Assembly: GCA_021838635.1 (NCBI GenBank)
Contig: JAKCDC010000004.1
Span: 1-64,000, forward strand
Direction: 5' to 3'
Length of the DNA: 64,000 nucleotides
Origin: Pseudomonadota bacterium
GTDB taxonomy: Bacteria > Pseudomonadota > Gammaproteobacteria > Steroidobacterales > Steroidobacteraceae
Shown here: piece by piece, positions 28,651-54,068 of the stretch
Layout: every line of letters begins with the position of its first letter
Position numbering within the stretch: position 1 is the first letter of the stretch
Translations under genes and position numbers: made by a program
The notes under the pieces: generated by a model
What the model saw: only the letters and a program-made list of their open reading frames with translations
What the model was told of the DNA's origin: nothing
The model's database searches: none

Positions 28651-29613
28651 TCACCTCTTGAGTTCGGCGCGCGGATCGAATGTCCCCAGCGTTGTGCGCA
28701 TCTGTTCGTATATCGCGCGCGCCTCTGGGGAATTCGCCGGTGGTGCGACGATCTTCAGCTGCACATAAGCGTCCCCCGGCGGCTGGCCCGGCAGACCGCG
28801 GCCGCGCAGACGGAGCTTTTGACCGGACTGCGCACCGCTTGGCACCTGCATGTCGACCGCGCCGCCGAGCGTCGGGACGGTGACCGTCGCGCCGAGTGCA
28901 GCTTCCCAGGGCGCGATCGGCAGCGTTAACGTAACGTCGCGGCCCTCCAGCTGGTAGAGACGATGCGGCCGGACGTGCACCTCGAGATACAGGTCGCCCG
29001 CCCGGGCGCCTCCTGCGCTGCGCTCGCCCTGGCCGGCGAGGCGGATGAGCTGGCCGTCGGTGACGCCCGCCGGAATGCTCACCCGCACCGTGTGGGCCCG
29101 TACGTCCAGCGAGCCGTCGGGCTTCATGTCGGGCCGCTTGAGTTCCAGCGTGCGCGTACCGCCGCCGAAGGCTTCCTCCAGGTCGAGGTCGATGCGTGCA
29201 TGGTGATCGCGGCCCTGGCGCGGCGCGCGCCGGGCGCCACCGCCGAACGGACTCGCCCCGCCGAACAGCGAGGAGAAGAAATCGCTGAAGCCCTCGCCGT
29301 CGAAGCCGGGCGCCCCGGTGGCCCCGGGGCGTGTCCCGCCGGTGAACTCGAAGCCGCTCGCCCAATCCGGTGGGGGGCGGAACTGCTGCCCGGACTTCCA
29401 CTCACTGCCGAGCTGATCGTAGGCGGCGCGCTTCTCCGGGTCCTTCAGGACCTCGTAGGCCTCCTGCACTTCCTTGAATTTCTGCTCGGCGTTCTTTTCC
29501 TTGCTCACATCGGGGTGATATTTGCGCGCGAGTCGCCGATAGGACTTCTTGATCTCCTCGGCCGTAGCCGTCCGGCCGACGCCGAGCAGCTGATAATAAT
29601 CCCGGTATTCCAT
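28651..29613 (-). CDS. cbpA: Curved DNA-binding protein CbpA / DnaJ-class chaperone
   Basis: J domain EYRDYYQLLGVGRTATAEEIKKSYRRLARKYHPDVSKE; C-terminal DnaJ domain DGSLDVRAHTVRVSIPAGVTDGQLIRLAGQGE. Confidence 0.9.
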   Translation of the reverse strand: MEYRDYYQLLGVGRTATAEEIKKSYRRLARKYHPDVSKEKNAEQKFKEVQEAYEVLKDPEKRAAYDQLGSEWKSGQQFRPPPDWASGFEFTGGTRPGATGAPGFDGEGFSDFFSSLFGGASPFGGGARRAPRQGRDHHARIDLDLEEAFGGGTRTLELKRPDMKPDGSLDVRAHTVRVSIPAGVTDGQLIRLAGQGERSAGGARAGDLYLEVHVRPHRLYQLEGRDVTLTLPIAPWEAALGATVTVPTLGGAVDMQVPSGAQSGQKLRLRGRGLPGQPPGDAYVQLKIVAPPANSPEARAIYEQMRTTLGTFDPRAELKR

Positions 29614-29734
29614 GTGCGATGCAGCCCTCGCGGAATCAATATAAGGAAGCGCTGAACGCAAAGATGGGGGCGATGGCGGCGAAGCCAAGGGTCGGGTGCT
29701 TGAACCGGGTCGGTGTCGACCCCATGTCCGGCTC

Positions 29735-30190
29735 ATGAACGCCGAAACTTCCGTGGCCGATGCGCTGCTGATTGCGTGCCCCCACTGCCACTCGCTGGTG
29801 CGAGTGCCCGAGGCACGCCTCGGAGAGCACCCGAAGTGTCCGCGCTGCAAGGCCGCGGTCCTCAGCGGGCAGACCGTTGCCCTCGATGCCGGTGGGTTCG
29901 CCGCACATGTCGAGCGGGCCTCGCTGCCGGTATTGGTGGATTTCTGGGCACCGTGGTGCGGTCCGTGCCGCATGATGGCGCCGGTGCTGGACCGCGTGGC
30001 CGCGCAGCGCGCCACCACGCTGCGCATCGGCAAGGTCAATACCGACGAGCAGCAGCAGCTGGCCGGTCGCTTTGGCATCCGCAGCATCCCAACCCTCATT
30101 CTCTTCCGCGGCGGTCAGGAACTGGCGCGCCATTCTGGCGCGGTGGACGCCGCCACGCTCGCACGCTGGCTCGATCAGGCGCTGCGCTGA
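29735..30190 (+). CDS. trxC: Thioredoxin TrxC (thioredoxin 2 with zinc-binding N-terminus)
   Basis: N-terminal CPHC...CPRC, active site WCGPCR, RFGIRSIPTLILFRGGQE. Confidence 0.93.
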   Translation: MNAETSVADALLIACPHCHSLVRVPEARLGEHPKCPRCKAAVLSGQTVALDAGGFAAHVERASLPVLVDFWAPWCGPCRMMAPVLDRVAAQRATTLRIGKVNTDEQQQLAGRFGIRSIPTLILFRGGQELARHSGAVDAATLARWLDQALR

Positions 30191-39994: not shown

Positions 39995-41089
39995 TCAGAG
40001 TGCGGTGGGATCCGCCGCGATGACTCGGTTGCGTCCGGAGTTCTTCGCCCGATACAGCGCGAAGTCGGCATCCTGGATGAGCAGTTCCGCAGTGCAACGC
40101 GGGTGAGATGCCGCACGGGTCGCAACACCGATGCTGATGGTGAGGTCGTGACGGCCCCAGCGTGCGGCCTGAACCTCAGCGCGCACACGCTCTGCGAGGG
40201 CGCGCGCGCCTACACCGTCCGTGGCGGGTAGGATGACCACGAACTCCTCGCCGCCGTAGCGGGCGACGATGTCCGACTCCCGAACCGCAGCCCGGATGAT
40301 CTGCGCCAGCTGACGCAGCGCATCATCGCCCACCTGGTGTCCGAAATTGTCGTTGAGCGATTTGAAGTGATCGGCATCGATGAGCAGCAGTGACAACCAT
40401 TCCTGTGCGCGCTGGCTGCGGGCGACCGCCTGGTTCAGCTGCTGGGTGAGTGCGAGACGATTGTAGAGGCCGGTGAGCGGATCGGTGATGGCTTGCGCGT
40501 GCAGTTGCATGTTCAGATGGCGCAACCGGCTCTGGTACTCCTCCAGCTCATGCTGATATGTCCGGGCGGATTCGAGAGCCTGCTGCAGCGCCCGGTGCAT
40601 CGAGCGCAATTTCAGCTGGACGGCTGCCTGGCGGGCGAGCGCCTGCAGCGCCGAGCGCTGACGCGGCTCCAGGCGCCGCGGCCGCTGATCCAGCACGCAC
40701 AGCGTACCGAGGGCATGGCCCTCCTCGGTGATGAGCGGGGCGCCGGCGTAGAAGCGGATCCGCGGCCCCTCGAGCACCAGGGGATTGTCGGCAAAACGCT
40801 CGTCCGCGGCGGTGTCCGGTACTTCCATGATCTGGTCCGGGACGAGAATGGCATGCGCGCAGAACGCCAGCTCGCGCGCCGTCTGCTCGAGCACCGTACC
40901 GAAGTGCGATTTGAACCACTGCCGATCCGTGTCGATCAGACTGACGAACGACAGTGGTGCATCGCACAGAGTCGCGGCGAGCAGCGTCAGGTCATCGAAC
41001 GCCTGCTCGGGGACGGAATCGAGAATCTCGAGGATGCGCAGCGACTTCAGGCGCTCGACCTCGTTGTCCGGGACCGCCGCGCCTTTCAT
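39995..41089 (-). CDS. GAF-GGDEF diguanylate cyclase
   Basis: GAF domain (LSFVSLIDTDRQWFKSHFG), RESD I-site and GGEEF active site (VARYGGEEFVVILPA). Confidence 0.9.
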   Translation of the reverse strand: MKGAAVPDNEVERLKSLRILEILDSVPEQAFDDLTLLAATLCDAPLSFVSLIDTDRQWFKSHFGTVLEQTARELAFCAHAILVPDQIMEVPDTAADERFADNPLVLEGPRIRFYAGAPLITEEGHALGTLCVLDQRPRRLEPRQRSALQALARQAAVQLKLRSMHRALQQALESARTYQHELEEYQSRLRHLNMQLHAQAITDPLTGLYNRLALTQQLNQAVARSQRAQEWLSLLLIDADHFKSLNDNFGHQVGDDALRQLAQIIRAAVRESDIVARYGGEEFVVILPATDGVGARALAERVRAEVQAARWGRHDLTISIGVATRAASHPRCTAELLIQDADFALYRAKNSGRNRVIAADPTAL

Positions 41090-41237
41090 CTCGTCGTGAC
41101 CGGTTCGTGCATGCGGACTCCTCCTGCCAGACACGCCTAGAATGCTAGCAAAGGCGTCTGCGACCAGGACAGTGTTGCCGGCCGCCGACGACTTGAGCGT
41201 TGGCTTGTGAGGTGGTGCGCGGCTCGCCCGCGCACGG

Positions 41238-43409
41238 TTAGTCGTCGTTCGAGGCCAGCAGCGGTCCCCCCCAGGCCGGACGTCGCAGTCGAGTGCTGGT
41301 GGCGGCGCTGTCGACGGTGCTGAGGGCGGCATGGGCGCGCAGCTTAGGTTCGATCACGGCGGCGCTCGCCGGTCGGCCGAATAGATAGCCCTGGTATTGG
41401 TCGCAACCGAGCGCGGCGAGGCGGGCCAGCTGTAGCGGCGTCTCGACCCCCTCGGCGATCACCTTCATGTGCAGGTTGTGCGCGAGGGAGATGATGGCGT
41501 GCACGATCAGTCCGGTTTGCGGATCGTCGTTCATCTCGCGCACGAAGCTGGCGTCGATCTTGAGCCGGTCGATCGGGAAGCGGCGCAGGTAACTCATGTT
41601 CGAATAGCCCGTGCCGAAGTCATCCACCGACACCAGCACGCCCATGCGGCTCAGCCGTTCGAGGATCGCCACCGAGGACTGCGCGTCGGTCATGACCGCA
41701 CTCTCGGTGATCTCCAGCTCCAGCAGCTTCGGGGCCAGCTGGTGCGCATCGAGCGCCGCAGCGATGGTCTGCAGCAGGCCGCTCTCGCGAAACTGCAGCG
41801 CCGAGAGGTTCACCGCCACGCGCATCAGCAGTCCGTCGTTCTGCCACAGGCGGGCTTGTCGGCAGGCCTCCTCTAGAACCCAGGCGCCGATCGGCAGAAT
41901 GAGGCCGGTTTCCTCGGCGATCGGTATGAAGGTGAGGGGTGGAAGGTAGCCGCGTTCCGGGTGGCGCCAGCGCAGCAGCGCCTCGACGCTGCTGACGCGC
42001 CCGCTCGTGACCTCGACGCGCGGCTGATAGTGCAGCTCGAACTGGCCGCGCTCGAGCGCCCGGTGCAGGTCGCTCTCCAGGCACAGACGCTCTTGCGTGA
42101 AACCGTTCATGTCTGCGGCGAAGCACTGCCAGGACCGCCCGCCACGCCGCTTCGCGCTGTACATTGCCTCATCCGCATGGGCCAGGAGTGTCTCCTGCGT
42201 ATCGGCATCGCCGGGGTGCAGACTGATGCCGATGCTGGTGGAGACCAGGACCTCCAGCGTCTGCAGGCGCAGCGGCTTGCTCAGCGCCGCGCTGATGCTC
42301 TCAGCGACGCGGCCGGCCTCGGCGGGGCTGCGGACGTGCCGCACGAGCACCAGAAATTCATCGCCGCTCATACGCGCAACGGTGTCGCCCGCGCGCACCG
42401 CGACGCGCAGCCGGCGCGCCACCTCGCGCAGTAGCTCATCGCCAGCGCTGTGGCCGAGCGAATCGTTGATCAGCTTAAAACGGTCGAGGTCAAGGGCGAG
42501 CACGGCGAACGGCCCGAGGCCGGCGCGCGCGTCCTTCAAGGCTGCCTCGAGGCGCCCGAGGAACGCGGTGTGGTTGGGCAGCCCGGTCAGCGCATCGTGC
42601 AGCGCCTGGTGGCGCAACTGCGCATTGATCTGCCGCAGCCGACTCGCGTGCGCCCGGGTGCGCGCCGCCAGTTCCGCGGTATACAGATCGCTGATCAGCG
42701 TGCAGGCGAGTACGCTGCCGGCGGCCAGCGCGATCGTAGCGGCGCACCAGAAGCTATTCAGAACCAGTCCGCCGCGGCTGACGGCGCCGGGGGCGAAGTG
42801 GGCGGCGGCGATGCCGAGGTAGTGGGTACCGCTGATGCCCAGGCCCATCAGCACCGCACCAGCGAGACGGGCCAGCGGGTGCGCCGTCGGGTCCCGCCGC
42901 GGCTGGAACGTCAGGTGCAGTGCCAGACCGGAGGTCAGGATGCTGAAAAGGATCGAAGCGGCGAGGAGCGCGGGCCGGTAGCGAATCGCCGGGGTGATGT
43001 CGATGGCGGCCATGCCGAGGTAGTGCATCGCGCCAATGCCGCCGCCCATCACCAGCGCGCCGAACATGAGCCGGCGCAGGCTCAGCCGCCCGGTGGCCGC
43101 GATGCGGATCGCACCCCAGGAGGTCAGGATCGCCACCAGCAGCGACAGCAGCGTCAGCGGCACGTCGTAGTGCAGTTGGATCGGCATCGCCATGGCGAGC
43201 ATGCCAATGAAGTGCATCGACCAGATGCCGATGCCGAGCACGCAAGCGCCGCCGAAGGTCCAGAAGCGACGCAGGGGGCGGCCCTCATCCACAACGCGTG
43301 CGGCGAGGCGAAACGCGGTGTAGGCGACGAAGACGGCGATCGTGACCGACAGCCCGACCAGCCAGCTATCGAAGGTGGTGTGCATGACGAACCGATTCCA
43401 TGCGCGCAT
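41238..43409 (-). CDS. MHYT-GGDEF-EAL membrane c-di-GMP protein
   Basis: Three MHYT-type motifs (SMHFIGM, AMHYLGM, GTHYLGI), SGDEF, and EAL domain (VEALLRWRHP, VDDFGTGYSNM, IAEGVET). Confidence 0.9.
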   Translation of the reverse strand: MRAWNRFVMHTTFDSWLVGLSVTIAVFVAYTAFRLAARVVDEGRPLRRFWTFGGACVLGIGIWSMHFIGMLAMAMPIQLHYDVPLTLLSLLVAILTSWGAIRIAATGRLSLRRLMFGALVMGGGIGAMHYLGMAAIDITPAIRYRPALLAASILFSILTSGLALHLTFQPRRDPTAHPLARLAGAVLMGLGISGTHYLGIAAAHFAPGAVSRGGLVLNSFWCAATIALAAGSVLACTLISDLYTAELAARTRAHASRLRQINAQLRHQALHDALTGLPNHTAFLGRLEAALKDARAGLGPFAVLALDLDRFKLINDSLGHSAGDELLREVARRLRVAVRAGDTVARMSGDEFLVLVRHVRSPAEAGRVAESISAALSKPLRLQTLEVLVSTSIGISLHPGDADTQETLLAHADEAMYSAKRRGGRSWQCFAADMNGFTQERLCLESDLHRALERGQFELHYQPRVEVTSGRVSSVEALLRWRHPERGYLPPLTFIPIAEETGLILPIGAWVLEEACRQARLWQNDGLLMRVAVNLSALQFRESGLLQTIAAALDAHQLAPKLLELEITESAVMTDAQSSVAILERLSRMGVLVSVDDFGTGYSNMSYLRRFPIDRLKIDASFVREMNDDPQTGLIVHAIISLAHNLHMKVIAEGVETPLQLARLAALGCDQYQGYLFGRPASAAVIEPKLRAHAALSTVDSAATSTRLRRPAWGGPLLASNDD

Positions 43410-43702
43410 CCTAATGAGGGCCTGCCGGCGAGCTGTGACTCGCGTCGCAGCAGCGCGCAGGCAGCCTGGCCCTGCCGCGGCGCCTGTGCGGCGGGCTAAC
43501 TCGTTCATCAGCCTAAGAATTTTTGCGATTTGTCACGGATTGGGGCGGGTTCGTATACGTACAAATCCCGATCCCCGCCGAGCGTGCGGGCCCGCGGGAG
43601 CGGGTGGGGCTAGGACATTTGCCGCGGTTGGCGCAAGACTTGTTGTGCGGCGGCCGATTGCGCATAGTGCGGCCTCCTTCGGCCGACCCCTCCCCACCGC
43701 TG

Positions 43703-46102: not shown

Positions 46103-47032
46103 TCATGCCGGGTCGTGTTCCGCCCGGTAATCGGATATCACCCGCGGCAACTCTTCGAGGCGGGCGATGAAGCGCACCCCGGGGATGCGGCGGCGTAGCC
46201 GGGCCCAGCGCGCGCCTCCGGCCCAGATTTCGATGTGCTGGGGTAACTGGGCGCGCAGGTCCTTGAGCATCTCGAGCGCGGCTTTTTGCCGCAGGGCCTC
46301 GCTGAAGGACAGGCCGACCACCTCCACGCCCTGCTGCCGCGCCGCCTCGCTGATATCCCAGGCGGGCGTCTGCACGCCCAGAGACACGCAGCGGATGCCT
46401 TCGACCGCCAAGCATGCCTGCGCCATCAGCAGCCCCAACTGATGCTCTTCGCCCGGCAGCGTCGTCAGCATGACGCTGGGGTGGCGCACGCCCGGGTAGA
46501 TGGCCCCGATGCCCTGGCGCAGCTGATGCTGCATCTGCTCGGTGTAGAGGTGCTCCTGGCTGATCGACAGCTGGCCGAGCGACCAGGCCTCCCCGACCCG
46601 CAGATTCATCCGGGCGGCGAAATCGATGACGAAGCGCTGCAGTCCGAGCCGCTGCAATGCCAGGGAAAGATGCGAGCGCAGGCCTGTTTCGTCGTAGGTC
46701 GCCAGGAGCCGCAGCGTGGTGTCGAACAGCTCCCCGTCCTCGGGCCGGGCGGCGGCGTGGGCAGGTTTGTCTTCGTCCCCCGATGCCCGCGCGATCAGCG
46801 CTTCCAGCGGCGTTGCGACCAGCTGTCCGGCACGTAACCCGCGGCCGAGCAAACGGCTGATCAGCCGCAGCTTGTGCACCTGGTCCTGCGGGTAAAGGCG
46901 CTCACCGTGCGCATCCCGCAGCGGTAGCGGAAACCCATAGCGTCGCTCCCAGATCCGCAGGGTGTCCTTGGACAGCCCTGTCTCGCGCTCCACGGCGCTG
47001 ATCGAGGCATCGGGCAACTGAGGCGTGGGCAC
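46103..47032 (-). CDS. MerR-family regulator with B12-binding domain (CarH/LitR-type putative photoreceptor)
   Basis: MerR HTH ([42 protein letters not shown]), W-x9-EH ([12 protein letters not shown]), ExHxxG (GEEHQLG); GTG at 47032 (ATG at 47086 also possible). Confidence 0.88.
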
Positions 47033-47033
47033 G

Positions 47034-47050
47034 TTTTGTCCTGGACAAAA
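47034..47050. promoter_or_regulatory. Operator-like palindrome 1
   Basis: TTTTGTCC-T-GGACAAAA, perfect 8-bp arms. Confidence 0.75.
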
Positions 47051-47051
47051 A

Positions 47052-47080
47052 TTGACAGATCTCAGCCCAGGCCATATTGT
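47052..47080 (+). promoter_or_regulatory. Putative sigma70 promoter for folE2
   Basis: TTGACA (47052-47057) - 17 bp - TATTGT (47075-47080), 1 bp after palindrome 1. Confidence 0.6.
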
Positions 47081-47096
47081 CCACACACACGTTCAA

Positions 47097-48022: not shown

Positions 48023-48228
48023 GGGGGCGTAAGGTAAGCACACATGACGGAGGGGGCATGGACAACGTGCGCGCAGGCTAGCGCGGCGCCGGGTGGTGAT
48101 GCACACCGCGTCGGCGCCGCCCGCGCTGAGCGCCGCACTCGCACCGTGGTGCGCGGCCGCGGCCACCAACGGCGTACCCTGCGGGGACGCGCGTGTGATC
48201 TTCACGACTGAGCGGAGTGCAGGCGCCG

Positions 48229-51042
48229 ATGCGTTGGACGATGGAACGCAAAACGCAGCTCGCCTTCGCCTGTGCTTTGGCCTGTGTGGTGCTGATCGGA
48301 GTCGTCTCCGTGCTCAGCCTGCAGCGCCTGCGGCGCGACGCCGCCTGGGTCACGCACACCGTGATGGTGCTTGCGAATCTGCGCCAACTGCAGGGCGGCA
48401 TCGAGACGGCCGAGTCCGATGAGCGAGACTTCCTCATCACCGAGAGTCCGACCGACCTGCGCGGGTACCGACATGCCGCGCGTGCCATCGAGGGCGGCTA
48501 CGGCCGGCTGCAGCGCCAGACTGCCGATAATCCGCTCGAACAGCGCCGCCTGGTGCGGCTCGCACCGCTCCTGGCGGCCCGCATCGCCGGGCTGAGTGCG
48601 CTCATCACGCTGCGGCGTGAGCATGGCTTTCAGGCCGCACAGCGCCAGCAGGTGCTGGCGCGGGCGCATCGCACGCTCGCCCAGCAGATCGACCGGATCA
48701 TCCGCCGGATGCGCGTGACCGAGCGAGCGCTGCTGGCCAGTCGCGAGGCGGCCGCCGCGCAGCGCGCGCGCCTGACCGAACAGACCGTCGCGGTCGGTGG
48801 CGCACTGGCCTTCGTCATTACCGCCCTGGCGCTCGGGGCGCTGCGGCGGGATTTTGCCGGGCGCCGCCGGGCCGAGACCGCAGTGCGTCAGTTGAACGCC
48901 GACCTGGAAAACCGTGTCATCCAGCGCACCGATGAACTGGCTCGTGCCAACGCCTCGGTGCGAGCCAGTGAGCGGCGGCTGCGCGCGTTCGTCAGTACCA
49001 CCTCGGACGTCCTCTACCAGATCGCACCGGACTGGAGCGAACTGCGCACCCAGCGCCCGGACGGCGACGGTGGCGCAGCGTCGGTGCCGACCACGGACTG
49101 GCTTGAGCGCTTCGTGCATGCCGAGGACCGCGAGCGGGTGCGCGCCGCCGTTGCCGAAGCGCTGCGCACGGGAGGATTACTCGAACTTGAGCACCGCATT
49201 CGGCGAAGCGACGGCAGCGTCGGTTGGGTGGTGTCCCGAGCGGTACCGCTGAAGGACGACGCGGACCGGATTATCGAATGGTTCGGCGCCGCCAGCGACG
49301 TGACCGAGCGCAAAGAGGCGCGTCTGAAGCTCGAGGCGCAGCTTGCGCGGCTCAGCCTGCTCGGCAGCATCACCCGCGCCATGGGTGAACGCCAGGACGT
49401 GCACAGCATCTTCGAGGTCGTCATCCATACCCTCGAGGCGCACCTGGCGCTCGATTTATGCTCGATCAACCGGTACGACAGCGCCGCGCACCGTCTGATC
49501 GTCGCTCGCGTGGGCAGGCAGAGCGCCGCGCTCGCGCTCGAATTGGCGCTCACCGAGAACACCAGCATCGACATCGGTCAAAACGGTCTGTCGCGTTGTG
49601 TGCGCGGCGAGTTGGTGTACGAACCGGATCTGGCGGTGCTCGGCGCGGTGTTTCCCCGCCGTCTGGCCGCCGGCGGTCTCGGCTCGCTGGTGGCCGCGCC
49701 GCTGCGCTTCGAGAGCCAGGTGTTTGGCGTGCTGCTCGCGGCGCGGCGCGAGCCACGCGGTTTCTCCAGCGGAGAGTGCGAATTTCTGCGTCAACTTGCC
49801 GAGCACGTCGCGCTCGCGGCCCAGCAGACGCAGCTGCACGAGGCGCTGCAGCGCGCGTACGACGATTTGCGCCAGACCCAGCAGGCAGTGCTGCAGCAGG
49901 AGCGTCTGCTCGCCCTCGGTACGATGGCAAGTGGCATCGCGCACGACATCAACAATGCGATCTCCCCCATCATGTTGTATACGGACATGCTGCTCGAGGA
50001 CCCGGAGGTACCGCTCCGGGTCCACAAGTCGCTGCAGGTGATCCAGCGAGCGGTCGAGCAGGTGGCGCACACGGTGGCGCGCATGCGTGAGTTCTACCGA
50101 GCGCGCGAGCCACAGCAGCGGCTCGCGCCGGTCGATCTGAATCAACTGGTCGAGGACGTGATTGATCTGACCCGTGCGCGCTGGAGCGATATGCCGCAGC
50201 AGCGCGGCGTCGTGATCGAGCTGCAGACCGAGCTGCAGCCGCAGCTGCCCCTGGTGCCGGGCGTCGCCAGCGAGTTGCGCGATGCGCTCACCAATCTGGT
50301 GTTCAACGCCGTCGATGCCATGCCGCAGGGCGGGCGCCTGGCGCTGCGGACCCGGCTGCTCGCGCCGGCGGCCGCGAACGGCCCGGCGCGCGGGTACGTG
50401 CAGCTGGCGGTGGCCGACTCCGGGGTGGGCATGGACGAGGAGACGCGCAGCCGCTGCCTCGAACCTTTCTACACCACCAAGGGTGAGCGTGGCACTGGCC
50501 TCGGGCTGCCGATGGTCTACGGCACCCTGCAGCGACACGGCGGGGAAATCGAGGTTGCGAGCGTTCAGGGCGAGGGCACGTGCGTGACGCTGAGCTTTCC
50601 AGTGATGCGCGACGATGCGGGCAGTGTGACCGGGATCCGTCCGGTCGAGGTGGTGCCGCCTCGGCGCATCCTGCTCGTCGATGACGATCCGATCGTGATT
50701 CAATCGACCCGCGAGACGTTGAGCGCCGACGGCCATGCCGTGAGCGCCGCCGACGGTGGGCAGGCGGGAATCGATGCGTTTCGCCACGCGCTGAGCGCGG
50801 GGGAGCCTTATGAAGTCGTGATTACGGACCTGGGCATGCCGCAGGTCGACGGCCGCCAGGTTGCCGCGGCCGTCAAGGGCGCTCGCCCGCAGACGCTCGT
50901 TGTGCTGTTGACCGGCTGGGGGCGGCGGCTGGTAGAGGAGGGGGAGATTCCCCCATACGTCGATCGGGTGCTCACCAAGCCGCCACGGCTGCACGAGCTG
51001 CGGGCGGCATTGGTGCCCCCGGGGGATGCGCCCGCAGCCTGA
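48229..51042 (+). CDS. Hybrid sensor histidine kinase (CHASE3-like/PAS/GAF/HisKA/HATPase/REC)
   Basis: Two TM helices, PAS/PAC, GAF, GIAHDINNAISP H-box, GTGLGLPMVYG G2 box, C-terminal receiver (LLVDDDP, VVITDLGMPQVDG); GTG at 48217 also possible. Confidence 0.9.
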   Translation: MRWTMERKTQLAFACALACVVLIGVVSVLSLQRLRRDAAWVTHTVMVLANLRQLQGGIETAESDERDFLITESPTDLRGYRHAARAIEGGYGRLQRQTADNPLEQRRLVRLAPLLAARIAGLSALITLRREHGFQAAQRQQVLARAHRTLAQQIDRIIRRMRVTERALLASREAAAAQRARLTEQTVAVGGALAFVITALALGALRRDFAGRRRAETAVRQLNADLENRVIQRTDELARANASVRASERRLRAFVSTTSDVLYQIAPDWSELRTQRPDGDGGAASVPTTDWLERFVHAEDRERVRAAVAEALRTGGLLELEHRIRRSDGSVGWVVSRAVPLKDDADRIIEWFGAASDVTERKEARLKLEAQLARLSLLGSITRAMGERQDVHSIFEVVIHTLEAHLALDLCSINRYDSAAHRLIVARVGRQSAALALELALTENTSIDIGQNGLSRCVRGELVYEPDLAVLGAVFPRRLAAGGLGSLVAAPLRFESQVFGVLLAARREPRGFSSGECEFLRQLAEHVALAAQQTQLHEALQRAYDDLRQTQQAVLQQERLLALGTMASGIAHDINNAISPIMLYTDMLLEDPEVPLRVHKSLQVIQRAVEQVAHTVARMREFYRAREPQQRLAPVDLNQLVEDVIDLTRARWSDMPQQRGVVIELQTELQPQLPLVPGVASELRDALTNLVFNAVDAMPQGGRLALRTRLLAPAAANGPARGYVQLAVADSGVGMDEETRSRCLEPFYTTKGERGTGLGLPMVYGTLQRHGGEIEVASVQGEGTCVTLSFPVMRDDAGSVTGIRPVEVVPPRRILLVDDDPIVIQSTRETLSADGHAVSAADGGQAGIDAFRHALSAGEPYEVVITDLGMPQVDGRQVAAAVKGARPQTLVVLLTGWGRRLVEEGEIPPYVDRVLTKPPRLHELRAALVPPGDAPAA

Positions 51043-51046
51043 ACGA

Positions 51047-52159
51047 CTAGAGGTTCAGGGTCGGTCGCCCGAACAGATAGCCCTGCAGCAGATCGACTCC
51101 GAGCCGCCGCGCGGTGCCCGCCTCGGCCTCGGTCTCGATGCCCTCGAGCACCACGCGGCTGCCCGTGGCCTGGGCGAAGCGGGTGAGCAACTCGACCAGC
51201 CGTTGCTTGCGCTCCTCGCGGTCGATGTTGCGCACGATGCTCATGTCGACTTTCAGGAAGGCCGGCTGCAGCTCCGCCAGTACCGCGAGCGAGTTGTATC
51301 CAGAGCCCAGGTCGTCGATCGCGATGCGGAAACCGGCCTGCGAGAGCCAGAGGATCGCGGCCCGCCAGTCGGTTTCCTCCAACAGATTGCTGCGCTCGGT
51401 GATTTCAATCACCAGCCGATCTGCGGCCGCGCGCAGCGGTTCGAAACGCCGCTGCACGGCGGGCAGATCTGCCAGCTCGCGCGGGTGGGAGTTGATGAAC
51501 AGCAGAAGCCCCTGCGGCAGCTTGTTCAGCCAGTCGGCGGCGGCTTGCGCGATCCAATCGGCGAGCGGACCGAGCATGTCGTGCTGCTCGGCCGCCCCGA
51601 GTACCCGCAGCGGGGTGTTGAGCGTCGGGTGGCAGCTACGCAGCAGTGCCTCGTAGCCCTGCAGCGCCCCGCTGTCGGCCTCGATGAGCGGTTGCACGGC
51701 GAGCTGCAGCATGCAGCCGCCGAGGCACGCTTCCAGTTCGCGGCGCTGCTGTTCCAGCCCATCCTGTTGGGCGCGTCCGTAGATGCGCTCCAGCCGGCCG
51801 CGCTCGGCGAGTGCTTCCTCGAGTACGCTGAACAGCGCATCGAGATGAAATGGCTTGGCGACCAGGCGGGACACTTCGCCGCGGTTTACCGCCCCCATCA
51901 CCACCGGCAGGTCGAGTGCTCCGGATATCAGCACGCGCACGCAGCGCGGCTGGACCGTTCGCAACTGGCGCAGGACCTCCAGTCCATCCGGTGGCGGCAG
52001 CTGGTAATCGACCACTGCGGCATCGTATTGCTGCGAGCAAATACGGTTCAGCGCCTCGGCGCCATCACCGGCCTCCTCGACGTCGCAGCCCCTGCGCTCC
52101 ATTGCGGTCCGCAGGACCGCGCGGAGATTGTTGTCGTCTTCGACGACCAGAACGCGCAT
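51047..52159 (-). CDS. REC-EAL response regulator (putative c-di-GMP phosphodiesterase)
   Basis: VLVVEDDNN...VVDYQLPPPDG receiver; YEALLR, EITERS, IDDLGSGYNSL, KVDMS, LEGIETEAE. Confidence 0.9.
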   Translation of the reverse strand: MRVLVVEDDNNLRAVLRTAMERRGCDVEEAGDGAEALNRICSQQYDAAVVDYQLPPPDGLEVLRQLRTVQPRCVRVLISGALDLPVVMGAVNRGEVSRLVAKPFHLDALFSVLEEALAERGRLERIYGRAQQDGLEQQRRELEACLGGCMLQLAVQPLIEADSGALQGYEALLRSCHPTLNTPLRVLGAAEQHDMLGPLADWIAQAAADWLNKLPQGLLLFINSHPRELADLPAVQRRFEPLRAAADRLVIEITERSNLLEETDWRAAILWLSQAGFRIAIDDLGSGYNSLAVLAELQPAFLKVDMSIVRNIDREERKQRLVELLTRFAQATGSRVVLEGIETEAEAGTARRLGVDLLQGYLFGRPTLNL

Positions 52160-52273: not shown

Positions 52274-52969
52274 TTACGCGCTGGTAGACATAAATACGCC
52301 GGATTTGCGGTTAAACAGGGCCGTCAGCAGCACCGCTCGTACGAGACAGCCCTTGTCGCTCGGTTGCGTCTTGATGACATGGGCGACCAAGTCCATGCCG
52401 AGCGCTTCGATGCGGATGTTGCGCCCCGGCCGCAGGGCCACGGCCGTATACAGGCTCACGCCGCTCGCCGATAGATCACGCAGCACCGCTGAGACCGGCG
52501 CCTCATCGGGTGCGGCATGCACGGTGACCCGACTGTTTTTCTCCACTCGCGGCGCGGCGCGCCTGCCGAACGGCTCACGGGCGGTGGCCAGTTCAGAGGC
52601 CACGGGCGCCAGTGGACTGGCGCAGCGGCGGCAGCGAGTTTCTGCCTCGATGCGTGTCGGGACGGGTGCAGTACAAAATGGACAGGTGCCTGCGGTGGCC
52701 GCGGCCGTCCGGCGCACTTCGCCGTCGGTCGGGCGGGTCCGGGAGGAGAGAGGACGGCGTCGGCTCTCGTCATACGCCTTCCGTTTGACCGGGTCGCGCA
52801 GTACTTGGTACGCCTGGTTGATGCGCGCGGCCAACTCGGTATTGCCGCCGAGATCCGGGTGGGCGCGCAGCTGGCTCATCAGGCAGCGGTACACCGCCGT
52901 GATCACCTCGGGCGGGGCCTCGGGTTGAACGTAGAGGATCCGGTACAGATTGCGTCGTTCGTGCGTCAT
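52274..52969 (-). CDS. J-domain / zinc-ribbon / PilZ fusion protein
   Basis: J domain with HPD (NLYRILYVQPEAPPEVITAVYRCLMSQLRAHPDLGG), CPFC-x~17-CRRC ribbon, PilZ RxxxR (RAAPR) and DLSASG. Confidence 0.75.
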   Translation of the reverse strand: MTHERRNLYRILYVQPEAPPEVITAVYRCLMSQLRAHPDLGGNTELAARINQAYQVLRDPVKRKAYDESRRRPLSSRTRPTDGEVRRTAAATAGTCPFCTAPVPTRIEAETRCRRCASPLAPVASELATAREPFGRRAAPRVEKNSRVTVHAAPDEAPVSAVLRDLSASGVSLYTAVALRPGRNIRIEALGMDLVAHVIKTQPSDKGCLVRAVLLTALFNRKSGVFMSTSA

Positions 52970-53222: not shown

Positions 53223-54068
53223 ATGACCACAAGCGCCGCTGAACGCTTCAACGGCAAAGTCGTGCTGATCACCGGAGCCTCCTCGGGCATCGGTGAGGAG
53301 ATGGCGCTGCAGCTCGCGCGCGCAGGGGCGCGCCTGGCGCTCGCGGCGCGTCGTACCGAGCGGCTGGAGCAACTGCGCGGGCAGATCCTGTCGGTCGGCG
53401 GCGCTGAGCCGTTGATCATCGCCTGCGACGTCACTCGGGATGAAGATCCGCTGCGCGCGGTGGCCGAGACGATCGCGCGCTGGGGTCGGCTCGACATCGT
53501 TATTGCGAACGCTGGCTTCGGTGTCGTCGGTTCCTTCGCACAGCTGTCGGTCGAGGACTACCGCCGGCAGTTCGAGACAAACGTATTTGGTGTCTTGCGC
53601 ACGCTGCGGGCCGCGCTGCCGGCGGTGCTTGAATCCCACGGTCAACTTGTCCTGCTCGGCAGCGTAGCGGGGTGGACGGCCTCCCCCGGCACCTCGCCCT
53701 ACGCCATGAGCAAGTTCGCCGTGCGTGCGCTCGCCAACGCCATGACCCCGGAGCTGGCGCTGCAGGGTGTACGTGTGACGCTGATCAGTCCGGGGTTCGT
53801 CGAGAGCGACATCCGCCGCGTGGACAATCAGGGGCATCTGCATGCCGAGGCGGCCGAGCCCATTCCGCGCTGGCTGGTGATGGCGCGTACTGAGGCGGTG
53901 CGCATCATGCTGCACGCCATCGCGCGGGGGCAGCGCGAAGTGATCGTCACCGGGCATGGCAAGCTGTTCGTCTTTCTTGAGCGGTTTTTTCCCTGGGTGT
54001 TGCGTGCCGCGGCGCGCCGCATGGCCGCGACACGCGGTGGGTATCGGACGGAGCCGAAGACCGAGTGA
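53223..54068 (+). CDS. Short-chain dehydrogenase/reductase
   Basis: VLITGASSGIGEEMA, NAGFGVVG, YAMSKFA. Confidence 0.93.
   Translation: MTTSAAERFNGKVVLITGASSGIGEEMALQLARAGARLALAARRTERLEQLRGQILSVGGAEPLIIACDVTRDEDPLRAVAETIARWGRLDIVIANAGFGVVGSFAQLSVEDYRRQFETNVFGVLRTLRAALPAVLESHGQLVLLGSVAGWTASPGTSPYAMSKFAVRALANAMTPELALQGVRVTLISPGFVESDIRRVDNQGHLHAEAAEPIPRWLVMARTEAVRIMLHAIARGQREVIVTGHGKLFVFLERFFPWVLRAAARRMAATRGGYRTEPKTE

Follow-up and report, generated by a model that had tools for sequence, protein, structure and literature searches.

Can a bacterial second messenger act on the Hsp70 chaperone system through a single protein? The question is raised by a polypeptide of 231 residues, encoded from an ATG start on the minus strand at 52274..52969 of the 64,000 nucleotides of DNA analyzed here (the window). 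An earlier note on this DNA had described a J domain, a zinc ribbon and a PilZ domain in the one chain, and had suggested that c-di-GMP gates its recruitment of an Hsp70. We refer to it as JZP, the J-ribbon-PilZ protein.

The three modules of JZP and their conservation

The three-module architecture is real, and each of the parts originally described is found. Residues 7-67 (52769..52951, on the minus strand like all parts of the protein) match the Pfam DnaJ model with E 4.5e-10 and 39.9 bits against a cut-off of 27.8, and the sequence and family alignment place the HPD tripeptide at residues 37-39 (52853..52861), next to a helix II located by residue spacing and the AlphaFold model at residues 20-36 (52862..52912). 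Residues 136-207 (52349..52564) match PilZ with E 2e-6 and 28.5 bits against a cut-off of 22.5, and retain both c-di-GMP motifs, R137xxxR141 (52547..52561) and DxSxxG in the form D165LSASG170 (52460..52477). Between the two domains lies a four-cysteine ribbon, CPFC...CRRC at residues 96-99 and 113-116 (C96, C99, C113 and C116; 52622..52684), with a conserved SPL behind it. JZP exceeds the cut-off of no single Pfam ribbon model, the best being DZR_2 at E 0.04; the support for the ribbon comes instead from its invariant cysteines and from the structural model, in which the two CxxC knuckles form a folded unit with pLDDT of about 92-95 over residues 101-120.

That model, computed with AlphaFold2 from a 60-member alignment, has a mean pLDDT of 81; confidence is mostly high in the J domain, ribbon and barrel and low at residues 73-88 and 131-135. 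When it was compared with the PDB using Foldseek, the matches were DnaJ-type J domains and the PilZ domains of BcsA, Alg44, PA0012, YcgR and VCA0042, many of them c-di-GMP-bound. JZP thus has the fold and the RxxxR and [D/N]xSxxG residues by which c-di-GMP-binding PilZ domains are recognized, and shares them with the YcgR, BcsA, Alg44 and PA0012 receptors that are its best fold matches, but the output of those receptors is a YcgR-N, synthase or membrane domain, whereas that of JZP is a J domain with a ribbon. With DnaJ, CbpA and the class C J proteins it has in common the J fold (by family model and by structure), the HPD tripeptide (in the copy of the window) and a helix IV KR..YD. It differs from them in a helix II that is two residues longer, in the added PilZ domain and in the loss of HPD from some members. 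It also lacks the G/F region and, by Pfam, any DnaJ_C match, the combination that marks class A and the CbpA type of class B. The canonical length and basic face of helix II, which are not strictly required for membership of class C, are likewise missing.

The minus-strand frame is the selected one, as judged from a dN/dS of 0.07-0.10 against close relatives. A plus-strand reading of the same stretch could be rejected on this value and on its in-frame stops, and a chance domain match on the existence of 131 homologues with invariant motifs. Scans of the locus for terminators, promoters and Rfam families gave nothing exceeding chance. Beyond the PilZ barrel, a tail of the form G.F.S..A (residues about 221-231) is kept in most of the family, though modelled at low confidence, and is missing from the clade with HPG in place of HPD described below.

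The family alignments have a mean column identity of just 41-45%, and no more than 18 columns reach 97% identity. These include all four ribbon cysteines (kept in 131, 131, 131 and 130 of the 131 non-redundant homologues) together with R137, R141 and G170, each invariant in all 131. Position 165 holds D in 123 members and N in another 5, hence D or N in 128 of 131, and position 167 is S in 125. Given these invariant ligand residues, c-di-GMP binding is the safest functional inference about JZP, and we consider it very probable.

How widely is the protein distributed? With the window's own genome counted each time, homologues are found in 24 of the 217 genomes of the window's family (with a protein query; in one of the 24, G188, the match is in the J domain alone), in 53 of 196 genomes drawn from the order and in 18 of 369 drawn from the class. 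A draw of 399 Pseudomonadota genomes contains only two, the window's own and one other of its class, so the JZP family is patchy rather than universal. No plasmid match was found. A scan of GTDB species genomes with two patterns, one of which contained HPD, gave 217 JZP loci. The best 80 of these include Legionella waltersii, Ideonella benzenivorans, Methyloglobulus morosus and Pseudohalioglobus lutimaris as well as MAGs labelled Acidobacteria, Nitrospirae, Thermodesulfovibrio, Caldithrix, KSB1, Deltaproteobacteria and Scalindua. A profile search found a family member encoded at all 80, and the whole J-ribbon-PilZ layout was seen in those of them that were inspected. The homologue set used above (n = 131) likewise combines scattered Gammaproteobacteria with records labelled Acidobacteria, Nitrospirae, KSB1/Caldithrix, Deltaproteobacteria and Planctomycetes, where MAG labels are given as deposited and some, such as Bordetella and Klebsiella, look wrong. 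In four records (L153, L154, L161 and L223) the deposited names (Bordetella parapertussis, Klebsiella pneumoniae, Rheinheimera) misfit an environmental gammaproteobacterial placement, and these are probably mislabelled. JZP is thus a member of a scattered, strongly conserved and apparently unstudied family.

Loss of HPD and retention of the J domain

Replacing the H or the D of HPD abolishes stimulation of Hsp70 in every tested system (PMC8215388). The tripeptide is present in 120 of the 130 assessable homologues; because one of the GTDB patterns itself held HPD, the profile-found members give the fairer figure outside the window's genus, 59 of 61. When the HPD columns are left out of a FastTree tree, parsimony infers about four independent losses. 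Two fall within the genus, one to DPD (L081-L083) and one to HPG (L084, L085 and L087-L089, with HPG also in the fragment L022), so that HPD is gone from 8 of 19 same-genus members, and two lie outside it, to HPK (L093) and SAT (L134). The HPD-losing lineages keep their ribbon and ligand residues unharmed. In the HPD-less genes of the genus the J segment is still constrained: dN/dS over it is 0.00-0.19 in eight pairs, and L084 and L085, for example, differ there by 12 synonymous changes and 0 non-synonymous ones. This purifying selection indicates that the J fold has an HPD-independent role in the HPD-less proteins of the genus.

Other features of the J domain also depart from DnaJ. The distance from the helix II Tyr to HPD is 9 residues in all 126 parsed homologues against 7 in DnaJ, and it is 7 in this genome's own DnaJ, CbpA-like protein and third J protein. 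Counting from the Tyr aligns position 24 with DnaJ R22. A basic residue (K or R) stands there in 97 of 112 homologues outside the genus, but the 19 genus members all have T or A (T in the JZP of the window). Ten members (L105, L106, L108, L109, L138, L139, L141, L142, L143 and L145) carry a second J domain in tandem, and in all ten the first J domain has HPD and the second has no HPD loop. The arrangement resembles the mitochondrial Pam18/Pam16 (Tim14/Tim16) pair of an HPD J domain with an HPD-less J-like domain, but that pair consists of two polypeptides and has no PilZ domain, and the likeness is one of resemblance only. That all ten tandem members keep exactly one HPD, in the first domain, suggests that the tripeptide does work.

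We can therefore ask whether the J domain needs DnaK at all. It could mainly be a protein-interaction surface, as in Pam16-type J-like domains, with JZP acting as a c-di-GMP-dependent adaptor or dimeriser and HPD residual or restricted to some lineages. The selection on the J segment of the DPD and HPG proteins is what this would predict, and the HPD-less second domain of the tandem members, the elongated helix II and the lost R22-equivalent of the genus fit it as well. It is strained by the retention of HPD in nearly all profile-found homologues outside the genus and in the first domain of every tandem member, which is hard to explain without DnaK, and we rate it as possible but doubtful. That nearly every member outside the genus has one and only one HPD in its chain argues for recruitment of DnaK as the usual output.

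Gene neighbourhood

Directly downstream of JZP on the same strand, after a gap of 114 bp and just as the earlier note had placed it, lies a gene for a REC-EAL response regulator (51047..52159, minus strand). Pfam and orthologues identify it as a probable c-di-GMP phosphodiesterase, and its sequence has the EAL-family residues EALLR, N, EITE, DD, K, E and Q. It shares the REC-EAL layout of PvrR (E 4e-30), but with 104.6 bits against an NCBIfam cut-off of 580 it is not a PvrR equivalog. Convergent with it is a CHASE3-PAS-GAF-HisKA-HATPase-REC hybrid histidine kinase (48217..51042, plus strand; Pfam, synteny), by position its probable partner. On the other side, divergent from JZP, is a short-chain dehydrogenase (SDR; 53223..54068, plus strand), recognized by its domain, for which no evidence of a functional link to JZP was found beyond synteny in the genus. 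Synteny in the genus covers the whole run of SDR, JZP, REC-EAL and hybrid kinase.

The pairing of a c-di-GMP effector with a degrading enzyme, which the earlier note had read from this adjacency, holds as far as the genus reaches and no further. A conserved co-occurrence with REC-EAL genes was searched for, but among 112 JZP loci outside the genus EAL is nearby at 3 and GGDEF at 10, and there is no enrichment of either (GGDEF-bearing loci come to about 6 per Mb, and this genome as a whole has 7 GGDEF matches per Mb). Even within the genus each gene also occurs alone: L086 keeps HPD with REC-EAL absent, and G021 and G024 have the SDR and REC-EAL with JZP absent. An obligate JZP/REC-EAL operon was rejected on these grounds. 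Nor was a conserved client gene or operon found next to JZP outside the genus, where neighbour clustering (gene calls lacking at 24 of 131 loci) recovered lineage synteny only.

The state of the REC-EAL gene can also be compared with that of the J domain, over a search of 58 genus genomes, many of them incomplete. REC-EAL is intact beside most HPD-bearing JZPs of the genus. Of the three DPD members, L081 and L082 have a frameshifted or broken copy, while in the third the frame is open (L083:8993-10102) with EAL changed to EGL. The HPG clade is without REC-EAL, and in L084, L085 and L089 the kinase gene directly follows JZP. The coincidence of J-domain decay with phosphodiesterase decay in two lineages hints at a functional link, though the sample is small and L086 and L083 are exceptions.

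Elsewhere in the window, a GAF-GGDEF gene overlaps an MHYT-GGDEF-EAL gene (39995-43508, minus strand), so that with REC-EAL and JZP four c-di-GMP genes lie in 13 kb. The window also encodes the CbpA-like J protein, with DnaJ and DnaJ_C domains (28651-30099, minus strand), whose ORF has a long non-homologous N-terminal extension and probably a wrong start, and a MerR-type regulator with a B12-binding domain in a CarH/LitR-like layout (46103-47086, minus strand), which is syntenic in several genus members.

A possible link between c-di-GMP and Hsp70

How might the modules work together? Both halves of such a pathway exist in this genome, which has one full-length DnaK, four J-domain proteins and 25 GGDEF matches. 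We infer c-di-GMP binding, DnaK stimulation, gating and a client for JZP. In the mechanism we propose, JZP would be a c-di-GMP receptor with the J domain as its output module. The ligand would occupy the RxxxR/DxSxxG site, directly past the ribbon in the chain, and its binding would order the N-terminal RxxxR arm and thereby alter how the ribbon and J domain are presented. As this arm begins about 20 residues past the last ribbon cysteine, its ordering would be a natural way to produce such a change. The ribbon/PilZ part would hold a target, and DnaK would then be either brought to it or kept away. In the lineage of the window the kinase-controlled REC-EAL neighbour would probably lower c-di-GMP near JZP, and in some lineages HPD would have been lost, with the J fold kept as a binding surface that does not stimulate DnaK.

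This combined reading, a receptor with a J output that recruits DnaK in most members and is reused without HPD in some, we regard as about evenly poised. In its favour are the Pfam and fold matches for both functional domains, the invariance of the ligand residues and cysteines in a divergent family, the HPD of 59 of 61 profile-found homologues outside the genus, the single HPD of each tandem member, the DnaK, J proteins and GGDEF matches of the genome and the CsdK2 precedent described below. Against it count the roughly four HPD losses, the helix II insertion in 126 of 126 homologues, the missing R22-equivalent of the genus and the lack of a conserved client gene outside the genus. There is also the precedent of M. 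xanthus PlpA, which has all conserved PilZ residues yet does not bind c-di-GMP in vitro (PMC8316039). The proposal of c-di-GMP-gated Hsp70 recruitment thus survives in part: the ligands are intact and HPD is present in the JZP of the window, but recruitment is not fixed, given the HPD-less and T/A-bearing members of the genus and the two extra residues of helix II, and gating would be a further step that we infer.

Other assignments of the modules fare less well. The ribbon might bind nucleic acid or the ribosome, making JZP a c-di-GMP-responsive regulator of transcription or translation whose J domain would direct DnaK to a regulator. Invariant cysteines and weak matches of individual members to several zinc-ribbon families would suit this idea, but no ribbon family is consistent across members (the best covers 3 of 60) and the Foldseek search found no DNA-binding fold beside the J and PilZ domains, and we think it unlikely. 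That the PilZ domain is merely structural and JZP an ordinary class C J protein is more unlikely still, since the few near-invariant columns include RxxxR and the glycine of DxSxxG and c-di-GMP-bound PilZ structures are the best fold matches, even though the PilZ Pfam scores are modest (E < 0.01 in 44 of 60 members) and non-binders that bear the motif, such as PlpA, exist.

For the receptor with a J output, the nearest studied precedent is provided by the PilZ-DnaK chaperones CsdK1 and CsdK2 of M. xanthus, which stabilise the PilZ protein CdbS; CsdK2 has a full c-di-GMP binding motif (PMC10313047). Like JZP they fuse PilZ to the Hsp70 system, a precedent for coupling it to c-di-GMP, but there PilZ is joined to Hsp70 itself, and neither a J domain nor a ribbon is reported, whereas in JZP the fusion is on the co-chaperone side. 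An M. xanthus catalogue lists 24 PilZ proteins, of which four have a DnaK or DnaJ domain; deletion of these four gave no motility, EPS or development phenotype (PMC8316039). These four presumably include CsdK1 and CsdK2. A PilZ domain combined with a DnaK or DnaJ domain has thus been catalogued before, though the text describes no ribbon and no family. The view that no member of this architecture has been characterized stands insofar as we found no paper naming a J-PilZ protein in the open-access literature (a J-protein survey behind subscription might describe the family), but must be qualified by these Myxococcus entries.

A bolder form of the proposal is that the second messenger gates Hsp70 directly through a dedicated J-protein family, and that within the genus this co-chaperone is being turned into a DnaK-independent c-di-GMP adaptor. 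The conversion is suggested by the changed HPD, the degraded or missing phosphodiesterase gene in most members of two lineages and the continued selection on the J fold, but we hold the whole only tentatively and think it rather improbable.

Should both c-di-GMP binding and DnaK stimulation prove true, JZP would tie protein quality control directly, at the molecular level, to the lifestyle switch governed by c-di-GMP, and would do so in a family found in several phyla. With all three modules in one chain of 231 residues, c-di-GMP-dependent stimulation of DnaK is directly testable in vitro, and the siblings without HPD and the tandem J-J' forms offer a natural test of whether a J domain can persist in a role other than stimulating Hsp70. 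Through JZP, the second messenger c-di-GMP may control the Hsp70 chaperone directly.
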